From: an uncultured Pirellulaceae bacterium
Lineage (GTDB): Bacteria; Planctomycetota; Planctomycetia; Pirellulales; Pirellulaceae
Assembly: GCA_937941455.1 (NCBI GenBank)
Contig: CALDHM010000037.1
Coordinates: forward strand, 1-64,000
Reading direction: 5' to 3'
Length of the DNA stretch: 64,000 nt
The notes under the pieces are model-generated. The model searched no databases, was not told where the DNA came from, and saw only the letters and a program-made list of their open reading frames with translations. The translations under genes were made by a program, and so were the position numbers. This document shows positions 3,797 to 56,706 of this stretch, one piece after another. How positions within the stretch are numbered: position 1 is the stretch's first letter; the number at the start of each line of letters is the position of its first letter.

Positions 3797-4445
3797 GAAT
3801 CGGTGCGGATGTCCCAAGTGATCACCCCAGCGATTTTGGTCGATCCGCTTGTTTACCTTGGCCTTGAAACGACGGCTGAACTTGGCGACTCTGTACTTTA
3901 AGCCTACCCAAAAACGAGTCTTCGCTTACGCTTCGGGCTAAAACTGCTGACGGTTTGGGGAAGGGTACGTGGCCTCTAAATGGAGCTGGTGTTGGTTCTT
4001 GGAAATTCAGTTGGGACTTTCACAGGTTCGATTCACGTGATATCGCGCAGCGCGGTGGAGCGGGACTTTGAAGCGGAGGGTACCACGATATTCATCCCAT
4101 TCAACTTTGCGATCATCAATGCGCTGCTGTCCGCGGGGCATTCGGGAACCCCTACCTTCGCCGACCCGGGCGTTTTCGCTAAAATTTGCGGCATGGAGGG
4201 GCAGGAAGATTTGCGATTTGCGCAAAATGAAGGGTTCCCGCTCGCCGCTACAGGAACCCTTCTAGAATTGGCTGTCCGAATCCAAGGTTTTTGACCTTTT
4301 CTCGGAGACCCACAGCCAGTACTGAGTATCGGGCACCGGGAAACGAAAGCTTTAGCTTTCAAATTTCGTAAGGAAATCGAGTCCAATCGTTACAAACTAA
4401 CAGGCTCGGCAACACACAATCGGCCCAAACCGCAAAGTTAACTCG
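3797..4445. other. intergenic region, 649 bp, between yraN and carA
   Basis: No convincing gene was found; the open frames here (about 104-117 codons on either strand) have no recognisable motifs. It holds copy A of a dispersed 35-bp repeat (3901-3935) and an inverted repeat, AAGGGTTCC...GGAACCCTT, at 4230-4261 with a 9-bp stem and 14-nt loop. The hairpin is not followed by a T-run, so it is not a typical terminator. The carA promoter is presumably in the last 150 bases but was not resolved. Confidence 0.6.
3901..3935 (+). repeat. dispersed 35-bp intergenic repeat, copy A
   Basis: The sequence starts AGCCTACCCAAAAACGAG and ends TTCGCTTACGCTTCG. It aligns without gaps to copy B (complement of 34210-34244) at 29/35 positions; copy C at 56357-56391 shares 29/35 with B. 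It lies 105 bases downstream of the yraN stop, in the same orientation as that gene. Confidence 0.7.
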
Positions 4446-18822: not shown

Positions 18823-19191
18823 ATGAAGCGAGTTGCCACCCCTGCCCTACTGTTGTGTGCCGCCGTTACCTTAACCGGTTGTGCGATGTGCTGCGGGCCT
18901 TACCTCGACCATTACCCAACGTTCGGCGGCAAAGTGCAACGGTCCGATCCGGCCTGGGGTCGAGTCGGCTCGATCTTTACCGATCCGTATACAGCCGGCA
19001 CGGGACCGTTGGCCGATTCGAATCTTGAGATCTACAAACCAAAGTCTCCCACCGATCGAGTTCCACTGATCGACGAACAAAAGGGTCCCGAGCCCGAGGA
19101 TCTTCCCTCGCCGCGGCGCGATTCTCAGACTAACCGCCAGTTGCCCGCCGCGCCGCCTGTGGGCTGGCGAGCAGGTTCGGGAGTTCGGTGA
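18823..19191 (+). CDS. small planctomycete lipoprotein of unknown function
   Basis: A 122-residue protein with a clear lipoprotein signal: MKRVATPALLLCAAVTLTGC, lipobox LTGC with Cys20 as the lipidated residue, followed by further cysteines (AMCCGPYLDHYP). The rest is Pro/Asp/Arg-rich and unstructured in appearance (DRVPLIDEQKGPEPEDLPSP). No domain is recognised. It follows the TolC-family gene on the same strand and ends in its own strong terminator, so it may be an accessory of the outer-membrane channel, but this rests only on position. The ATG at 18823 is set by the signal peptide. Confidence 0.75.
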   Translation: MKRVATPALLLCAAVTLTGCAMCCGPYLDHYPTFGGKVQRSDPAWGRVGSIFTDPYTAGTGPLADSNLEIYKPKSPTDRVPLIDEQKGPEPEDLPSPRRDSQTNRQLPAAPPVGWRAGSGVR

Positions 19192-19242
19192 TTCCCAAAT
19201 TTGCACTGATCCACTTGCGCAATGTTCAAATTAGGGGGGAAG

Positions 19243-19274
19243 CTGCCGACCGCATGCGGTCGGCAGTTTTTTTA
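19243..19274 (+). terminator. strong Rho-independent terminator after the small lipoprotein gene
   Basis: A perfect 11-bp inverted repeat, CTGCCGACCGC / GCGGTCGGCAG (19243-19253 and 19256-19266), with a minimal loop, is followed directly by TTTTTTT. It lies 52 bases after the lipoprotein stop and is the clearest terminator in the window. Confidence 0.9.
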
Positions 19275-20434
19275 TGCTGAGTTGTCTCTTTGCCGTCGTT
19301 TCGATTTAGAGACTGTCCCAAAACCAACTCACTGGCGGAATGCCCGTGCCACAACTTGGCGGTTTTGGAGCAGGATCTGATGCCGAATTGCAGCGAGGGG
19401 TGCTTGATGGGGGCAGGAAATCGCGTCAAGCAACACAGCTTTGAGGGGCGGCTTGTTGATGGTCCGGTCTTATCCGCGTCCTTGTTAAGCCATTGTTTGA
19501 GCGTCGACATCATCGTGGCAATCGGTCCGCTATTGATGGATTGCCGCAACAGGCGCGGTTGGGGTTGCCACGCGTTTTTTCATGCTGTGGGGGATGACGC
19601 ACTCAAAAACGCCTGTACATTTGCTCCCTGAGCGTTAAACCGTTAGCCGAAGGCGCACGAGATTACTGTATTTTTTAACATCCTTAGAGCGTACGCTTAG
19701 AACGAAAGCCGGCGGCTAGCGGTTAAACGACTAGGGCACTCCCGAACGAAAGGACTCAAAAATGCTTGTCGCTATGGTTTCTTATTTCTGCCGCATCGGC
19801 TGGCCGTAGGATATGCAGCAATGTGTTGCACGCGTAACCTGATGTAAAAAGCTGGATCACCACAAAAAAGGTCTCAGCCGTTACCGATCGTGGCGTTTCG
19901 TCATTAAAAAGTGACCCAGAGCGAATTGGAAACGAAGAATGCGTCGCTGTCGAAGTGGCGCATTTGGCAAATTCCCGGCGGGTAGCATAACACGGCGTGA
20001 AAGGTTACGAATCGTCGCGTCGAGCTGTTCGGTCTTTGGGGGCTACAAAAGCGAATTTGGTCTATTGTCGGAATGATGACCATCGAGTCACTAAGTGTTC
20101 CTCGAGCCGCTATTGTCTTGTGTCTTGTTCGAGAGTAGCCGATTGGCTACACTACGCAAGATGTTGAGGGCTCGTTGATTGGCCGTTTTTGTGGACCGCA
20201 TTTGCCAACATAAATTTCTCGCCAGGGCGTGTCCGCGCGGGGCTGGGCAGGGCGGTCTAAAGGTTCCCTAAAAGGACTTCCGGTAATTGTCGCCAAGTTA
20301 GGGTGATTCTGATTTTCGAAGCCGAGCTCATCGAGCGAACAGGTCTCAATGGAAAATAAATCCGTTGATGATGAAGATCGGCGAGCGTTGACGGTTACCC
20401 ATTGCAGAGTTAGTCAGCAGGATGAGGACGGTTC
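19275..20434. other. 1.16-kb non-coding stretch upstream of tRNA-Ser
   Basis: No gene is supported; frames of about 107-113 codons on both strands near 19226-19631 have no recognisable motif. It contains a sequence at 19306-19325 (TTAGAGACTGTCCCAAAACC) that resembles the outer end of the IS at 47309, and a REP-like inverted pair at 19634-19728. The rest (19740-20430) shows no repeat or RNA structure that I could recognise. Confidence 0.5.
19634..19728. repeat. REP-like inverted repeat pair (family 2, copies a and b)
   Basis: Copy a at 19634-19655 reads GTTAAACCGTTAGCCGAAGG; copy b is its near-complement at 19708-19728 (GCCGGCGGCTAGCGGTTAA on the plus strand). They face each other across about 52 bases, like a BIME unit of bacterial REP elements. 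Related singles are at 42338-42358 and 48280-48300. Confidence 0.55.
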
Positions 20435-34172: not shown

Positions 34173-34209
34173 CGAGTTCTCTTTTGTTTAGCAATCGTAG
34201 CTGGTGTAT

Positions 34210-34244
34210 CGAAGCGTAAGCGAGAGCTGGTTTTGGGATAGGCT
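34210..34244 (-). repeat. dispersed 35-bp intergenic repeat, copy B
   Basis: On the minus strand it begins AGCCTATCCCAAAACCAG and ends CTCGCTTACGCTTCG. It is 29/35 identical to copy A and to copy C without gaps. It lies 80 bases downstream of the ileS stop, in the same orientation as ileS. Its outer 21 bases (to 34249) also match the outer end of the IS at 47305-47325 at 20 of 21 positions. Confidence 0.7.
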
Positions 34245-34323
34245 CTAAGTTTGGTTTTGACAATTTACGAGGAGTTCGCCGCATGGCAACTGGCCGGATA
34301 GAGCTTCCCGATTGCGCCCGCCA

Positions 34324-47308: not shown

Positions 47309-48242
47309 GAGCCTATCCGAAAACCCCTGATCTAGCATATGTAAGATATGCATATGCGAGATGCAGGCAAGCAATATGATTTTGTACTTGCGTTTCCCAG
47401 CGAATGTGTATTCCCCGGAATCGATTTAGCCAACCGTGTGTTCGCTCGAAAACCCATCGCCTAGCCTTCTTTCGACAACCCCGTGCGGCGTCTTTGGATT
47501 CATCACCGTGAGACTTGATATGAGCGATGTATCCGTACACAGTTTCAAGCCTCTCTCGAACTGCTTTAGAATCATATCCTTGATCTAAAACGAGGTGCTC
47601 CTCGAGGCCCTCCTCAGTTTGTGGTAAGCACTCCCAAGCATCGTCTATTGTCTGTTCCAGCAGTCGGATGTCGTGCACATTGGCACCAGCTACAGCCAGT
47701 CCCAGTGGGATACCGTTGGCGTCGGTCATCAATGATCTTTTCGTTCCTTGCTTGGCTCGGGCCGTTGGGTTTTTCCCCGTCTTTTAATAGCCCAAAGGGG
47801 CTTTGGTCATTGCACCGTCCACGCACTGACATCGCAGATCCAATCCGACCAGATCGTCATAGTCCGCTAATGCCTCCTGCTAAAGCAGGCAGAATACACC
47901 GGCCTCTAACCACTCCTGAAAGTACTGATGCGCTGAGCTGCCAGGAGCCAATTCCTTCGGAATGGCATTTCATTGACAGCCCGTTCGCAAACGGCAGAGG
48001 ATGGCATCTGCAGCACGTCGTAAATCCGCTTGCGGATGCCCCCCCTCGGTATTTTCGGGGTGTTTCGGTACAAGGGGTTCCTTTAGTTCCCAGAGCCCGT
48101 CTGGCATGAGGTAGTCATCATAGCGGCTCGCACCATCCATGGTGAGTCCTTTGTGTTTGAGTTGTTTTTATGGCCACTTTTCAAATACACGGGACGCACC
48201 GGTGCAGCAAGCTTATTTCAGTTCTAGGTTTTCGGATAGATA
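47309..48242 (-). mobile_element. degenerate IS5-family insertion sequence (about 934 bp)
   Basis: Terminal inverted repeats are CTATCCGAAAACC (47313-47325) and its exact complement (48227-48239). A TTA triplet flanks both ends (47306-47308 and 48243-48245), matching the short target duplication of IS5-group elements. The single transposase frame reads toward the left end and its TAG stop lies inside the left repeat, as in compact IS5 elements. The transposase is inactivated by three stops, so the element is dead unless helped in trans. Confidence 0.8.
47313..48140 (-). pseudogene. IS5-family DDE transposase, broken by three in-frame stops
   Basis: A single 276-codon frame runs from ATG (complement of 48138-48140) to the TAG at 47313-47315 with no frameshift. 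The protein starts MDGASRYDDYLMPDGLWELK and has DDE-family segments: GLDLRCQCVDGAMTKAP, NGIPLGLAVAGANVHDIRL, LVLDQGYDS, and the C-terminal RRWVFERTHGWLNRFRGI. It is interrupted at a TGA after RLRTGCQ, a TAG after AGVFCLL and a TAA after TKAPLGY. The first two stand where IS5 transposases normally have Trp. These are nonsense mutations, so this is decay rather than programmed frameshifting. Confidence 0.85.
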
Positions 48243-48279
48243 TTAAATACAAAAACCTCCAGCACCAATGGAACCCTAA

Positions 48280-56355: not shown

Positions 56356-56706
56356 GAGCTTATCCCTAAAGCAGCCCTGGCTTACGCTGCGGGTTACGGT
56401 CGCTGTCGGAGTTGGGATCGGCCAAAAGCTCGAACTTGGTTCATCGAGCCTTACCGCCGCGGTTGCGTGGGAAACGGAAGCGCTCTGTGATTTTCGGTAT
56501 GCTTGGTTGGCCGGCAGCATAACCCGCGGTGGAGCTCGATGGCGAGAAAGAGCGTGCAGCTGAAGAGGCTCCGTTTCGCATTGACGGCGAGCCTGCGAAG
56601 CGGTTGGAGGTTTAGGAAAACAAGTATGGGTGGCTGTGGAATTGTGCCGGATGGTTTTTAATAGTACCTTCGCTTCGATTACTGTCATTATTGATGGGTA
56701 GTGTTC
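56356..56706. other. 351-bp intergenic region with dispersed repeat copy C
   Basis: It holds the 35-bp repeat at 56357-56391, starting directly after the VWA gene stop. The remainder (56392-56706) has no gene or recognised RNA and presumably carries the promoter of the Lon-like gene. Confidence 0.5.
56357..56391 (+). repeat. dispersed 35-bp intergenic repeat, copy C
   Basis: It begins AGCTTATCCCTAAAGCAG and ends TGGCTTACGCTGCG. It matches copy B at 29 of 35 positions without gaps and starts 2 bases after the stop codon of the VWA gene, in the same orientation as that gene. Confidence 0.65.

Follow-up and report, generated by a model that had tools for sequence, protein, structure and literature searches.

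Three dispersed repeats in a planctomycete contig are very probably worn copies of a 69-bp MITE with a broken IS5-type candidate parent

The stretch of DNA analysed here (the ‘window’: positions 1 to 64,000 of contig CALDHM010000037.1, from the uncultured Pirellulaceae assembly GCA_937941455.1) raises a simple question: what is the short repeat that lies behind three unrelated genes, each time pointing the same way as the gene? A preliminary description had reported three gap-free 35-base matches, at 3901-3935 (plus), 34210-34244 (minus) and 56357-56391 (plus), here called copies A, B and C, lying downstream of genes that it named yraN, ileS and VWA, and had read them as a REP-like, 3'-UTR or terminator-like element. 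From the sequence itself, and on recomputing, the three matches exist with the identities claimed (29/35 for both A-B and B-C), the remaining pair, A-C, standing at 25/35 in gap-free alignment; all three are intergenic, and each runs in the same direction as the gene just upstream. They are also more than chance, as had been supposed: the core CTCGCTTACGCTTCGGG, allowing up to 3 mismatches, matches three times in the window (0.22 in shuffles) and 199 times in the 4.04-Mb genome, where the reversed pattern, our control in all genome counts, matches 24 times.

We conclude, with high confidence, that all three are decayed members of a genome-wide 69-bp MITE family, the burst of which would be over and the candidate IS5-type driver of which is broken. 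The features of the window on which this reading draws are as follows.

3900..3968, plus strand: copy A, full-length 69-bp MITE, decayed, 53/69 to the consensus; core at 3921-3937
19309..19377, plus strand: probable further copy, shell only, uncertain; ends 15/17 and ~13/17, TTA/TGA flanks
34208..34245, minus strand: copy B, truncated to its left half of 38 bp, of which 35/38 agree with the consensus; preceded by TTA
47309..48243, minus strand: broken IS5-type IS, 935 bp, candidate parent, from its transposase matches and ends
56356..56424, plus strand: copy C, full-length 69-bp MITE, 57/69 to the consensus

Aligning the flanks of core matches in ~630 kb of the same genome gives the consensus GAGCCTATCCCAAAACC-AGCC-CTCGCTTACGCTTCGGG-TTACGGCTGCTGTC-GGTTTTGGGATAGGCTC, a palindromic element of 69 bp (exactly so in 60 of 82 full copies) whose 17-bp terminal inverted repeats are perfect in the consensus. 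The 17-bp end is found at 189 places in the genome, against 9 for the control, and its commonest pairing is at a spacing of 52 bp; more than 90% of the cores in this genome lie within such a shell, 5 of 72 being without one. The element is thus short, non-coding and multi-copy, as a MITE should be, with ~100-200 copies by pattern, the copy statistics that follow resting on stretches sampled around pattern matches. The 35-mer is therefore a real repeat but not the whole unit, being only the left half of the palindrome; this half is the better conserved and was the sole part seen, which is why it alone had been reported.

Copies A and C are both recovered by nhmmer, the former at 3894-3972 (E=2e-17), the latter with E=6e-18. 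The TAA that ends the VWA gene abuts the first base of copy C and fits the TNA target described below. Copy B has lost its right half, where the match to the consensus (8/31) is at chance level, and ~36 bp downstream of it the next gene begins (purN-like, as read from the translation alone). The uncertain copy at 19309-19377 has an interior unrelated to the core, and overall agrees with the consensus at 40 of 69 positions.

How the element moved can be read from its flanks. In the 74 copies with recognisable ends these are TNA on both sides, the middle base agreeing between the two sides in 47 (26.3 when shuffled, p<2e-4) and all three bases in 15 (6.4 expected, p=7e-4); duplication lengths of 1, 2, 4 and 5 give no flank-agreement signal, and the local target preference is RYTNARY. 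A 3-bp TNA duplication implies that the copies arose by DNA transposition, with a DDE-type enzyme, and hence that the element is a MITE. The duplications are not intact in copies A (TTT/GTG) and C (TAA/AAA), and the IS described below has TTA/TAA flanks, points that tell against this reading. Sister species carry the same ends and TNA-type flanks around other interiors, with middle-base agreement in 8 of 18 copies against 5.4, not significant alone. Stop codons are not significantly preferred as TNA targets (4 of 56, against 4.3% of intergenic TNA sites).

A candidate source of the enzyme lies in the same window. The IS at 47309-48243 matches PF13340 (4.6e-10), PF01609 (2.1e-16) and NF033580 (2.2e-32), and in this 96%-complete genome it is the only above-cutoff match to NF033580 (E=7.8e-57), with 3 internal stops. 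Its left end, GAGCCTATCCGAAAACC, agrees with the MITE end at 16 of 17 positions, and its flanks read TTA...TAA. A resemblance between copy B and the end at 47309 had already been pointed out, and the match is 20/21 as claimed (CTTAGAGCCTATCC[C/G]AAAACC); it has turned out to be the key to the identity of the element. The parental link is one of similarity, since only one end of the IS gives the 16/17 match and the right end is worn, with 4 mismatches to the left. TNA-type targets are known for some IS5 subgroups. On the strength of its ends, this IS is the best candidate for having driven the MITE.

Synthesising these observations, we suggest that an IS5-family IS whose ends were nearly identical to those of the MITE supplied a transposase that acted in trans on the terminal repeats, and that copies would have been inserted at TNA trinucleotides (RYTNARY) with the duplication of 3 bp. 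Insertions within genes would then have been purged, so as to leave copies intergenic and, occasionally, exactly at a TAA stop. With its sole clear candidate parent (47309-48243) broken, the burst would now be over and the copies decaying independently. Both the mobilisation in trans by this particular IS and its subsequent loss of activity are steps that we infer. Decay itself is visible in the copies, which are 17% diverged and star-like, at a median of 12/69 from the consensus and 12.5/69 from the nearest relative; as they differ about equally from the consensus and from one another, the burst is an old one and its copies are now decaying.

The element is ordinary in kind, namely a MITE with a dead IS5-type candidate parent in the same window. 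It resembles bacterial MITEs such as RUP, NEMIS/Correia, Nezha, ERIC and others listed in PMC3733652 in being short, non-coding and intergenic, with terminal inverted repeats in the 15-30 bp range, a target duplication and ends that match a resident IS, but its 69 bp place it at the bottom of their usual size range (70-300 bp) and, unlike them, it has at its centre a motif common to unrelated elements class-wide. With the IS5 family (NF033580, PF13340 + PF01609) it shares the ends GAGCCTATCC[C/G]AAAACC, but it has no coding region, and the resident IS is broken.

One property fits a plain MITE less well. When 51 copies are selected on one end only, identity to the consensus is 88% in the core but 81% in the end not used for selection (Wilcoxon p=5e-4), which counts against a plain MITE, since the decay of a dead one does not predict a core better conserved than its ends. 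This may be a modest sign of constraint or homogenisation. It also speaks for a rival reading, in which activity resides in the core, as a module that is mobile or bound by a protein and that enters the centres of palindromes, the 17-bp ends being just one shell of many. We regard this as unlikely; part of the case for it comes from other Planctomycetia.

The core 17-mer is present, at up to 2 mismatches, in 51 of 60 relatives and, with a looser pattern, is patchy but reaches hundreds of copies across the class. We had considered that it might be confined to Pirellulales (the strict pattern is found in 2 of 294 genomes), an idea given up on account of the looser pattern, which is at high copy elsewhere in the class. 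The core is abundant in relatives that lack the 17-bp ends, and in other planctomycetes at large it occurs singly, as inverted pairs (TTAACCCGAAGCGTNAGCGAGG...CCTCGCTNACGCTTCGGGTTAA) or as tandem arrays; in one genome (G051) such arrays have periods of ~29-41 bp and run to as many as eight units. Among named genomes, outer inverted repeats surround 54 of 112 exact inverted core pairs, against 3 of 336 control positions, and belong to at least eight unrelated sequence types (counted by eye, not by clustering), several of which recur within one genome; examples are GCTAGCGGGCTGTTGATTTAGTC in Neorhodopirellula pilleata and GTTTTGAAGTTGCGCTTTT in several genera. The converse is also seen, as the shell with ends GAGCCTATCCCAAAA has other centres in sister species and, in rare cases, in this genome: there are 102-bp forms with GGGGTCAGACCC, 67-68-bp forms with GGACGAGACGT and 78-bp forms with CCCTTCTCCCC..GGGGAGAAGGG. 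The last of these interiors was tried as a widespread repeat in its own right in these relatives, and was not supported as such. With the core in varied shells and the shell around varied centres, it follows that shell and centre recombine in evolution, and the core is a module common to many small palindromic elements of Planctomycetia, not one specific to the 69-bp element.

A neighbouring case may be mentioned here. In a genome of the same genus (G001), several ~1.6-kb IS copies, with a 477-aa DDE_Tnp_1 transposase, sit at a GGGTCAGACCC palindrome that itself lies within a 102-bp MITE with GAGCCTATCCCAAAA ends; this IS seems to target the centre of another MITE.

It is conceivable, if on balance improbable, that Planctomycetia possess in the 17-22-bp core a module in its own right, free of RAYTs, which has repeatedly colonised, or been recruited into, the centres of unrelated MITEs. 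Either a hypothetical enzyme would copy the core into palindromes, or elements with the core would be favoured by a conserved DNA-binding protein of the host. Both the enzyme and the binding protein are hypothetical, however, and the conservation gap is modest; in this genome, moreover, nearly all cores lie in the shell, and as it is the shell that has the TNA duplications, the shell is what moved here. We keep to the MITE as the explanation of copies A, B and C. What the comparison does bring out is that, in the small palindromic elements of Planctomycetia, different genera keep the centre but vary in the ends, whereas MITEs would be expected to do the opposite; if a full survey bears this out, the core must be acted on by something. 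It is this core, nested and class-wide, that deserves follow-up, and in the open-access literature we found no precedent for it, no mention of the motif, and no REP or MITE work on Pirellulales.

A second rival is that of a RAYT-type REP, a hairpin of 20-40 bp that occurs as singlets and inverted pairs and is spread by a REP-associated tyrosine transposase. High copy number and an extragenic position, which this family shares with REP/REPIN/BIME elements (PMC3733652, PMC2817692), bear out that much of the earlier ‘REP-like’ label, and the inverted pairs and clusters of cores in relatives add to the likeness, such pairs being absent from the 69-bp element itself. The rest of the label fails. 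A lone core unit forms no hairpin, folding no better than shuffles (z +0.68 as DNA, -0.38 as RNA), and there is no GTAG/CGTC tag, as defined in PMC3733652, at the end of the unit CCCTCGCTTACGCTTCGGGTTA. Core and RAYT counts correlate weakly over 59 genomes (rho 0.40), but this is largely shared with genome size (0.37, 0.48); one genome has many cores and no RAYT (G030), another 26 RAYTs and no core at up to 2 mismatches (G033). Linkage is what rejects a RAYT-driven REP, as there is no core near 69 of 70 RAYT loci: none within ~1.5 kb of the 30 top RAYT genes, and cores near just 1 of 40 further loci in core-rich genomes, with 2 copies where density predicts 4.4. The copies in this genome carry, besides, the TNA duplications of a DDE-type enzyme, and its only Y1-type (RAYT/IS200-like) transposase match, at G000:C22:3841-4188, is interrupted by an in-frame TAA. 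We consider a RAYT-type origin very improbable. In Pseudomonas, REPs are found nested in larger inverted repeats beside RAYT genes (PMC3733652, Fig. 8B), which is similar in having a repeat motif within outer inverted repeats; those, however, are linked to RAYT genes and to GTAG motifs, whereas the planctomycete core is independent of RAYTs, class-wide and found within many outer repeats.

The remaining rival, for which we see next to no prospect, is the one closest to the initial impression: a terminator, an RNA-stabilising 3'-UTR element or some other selected hairpin downstream of genes. We sampled 102 copies, with genes called by a codon-usage script rather than a published caller; of the 100 that could be placed, 98 fall between genes, as do 22% of positions drawn at random, and 98 lie in classifiable gaps. 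A bias of orientation relative to genes, the absence of which had been named beforehand as refuting, is not seen: in tandem gaps 27 copies run with the genes and 25 against them, and the gene end closest to a copy is as often 5' (49 cases) as 3' (49). A position downstream of a gene and in its orientation, true as it is of A, B and C, is consequently not a property of the family, and their shared orientation is a coincidence of three. Convergent gaps are slightly enriched (26/98, against 17.6% of intergenic space) and divergent gaps depleted (20/98, against 31%), which might be taken to favour a selected hairpin, as might the strong folding of the consensus (RNA -38.5 kcal/mol, z -6.7; DNA z -7.0). 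Against this, neither copy A nor copy C surpasses its shuffles in folding or has a terminator-like site, and across 74 copies the stem has no excess of pairing or of compensatory change (paired fraction 0.765 against 0.761; 17 compensatory changes against 15.1 shuffled); T-rich tails are near background (4.7% against 3.3%), and no Rfam family matches. Orientation, covariation, folding and T-runs together thus reject an intrinsic terminator or 3'-UTR element.

The false lead of a terminator-like 3' element is in this way replaced by a dated event, a MITE burst now dead whose candidate driver lies broken in the same window. Annotators should be warned that repeats of this kind will easily be mistaken for 3'-UTR signals or for short hypothetical proteins. 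Separately from the repeat family, a hairpin, GCTGCCGACCGCATGCGGTCGGCAG, with a T-run behind it lies at ~19241-19275 in the window and resembles a terminator; on one side of it is the gene that ends at 19191, on the other the probable degenerate copy of the shell.
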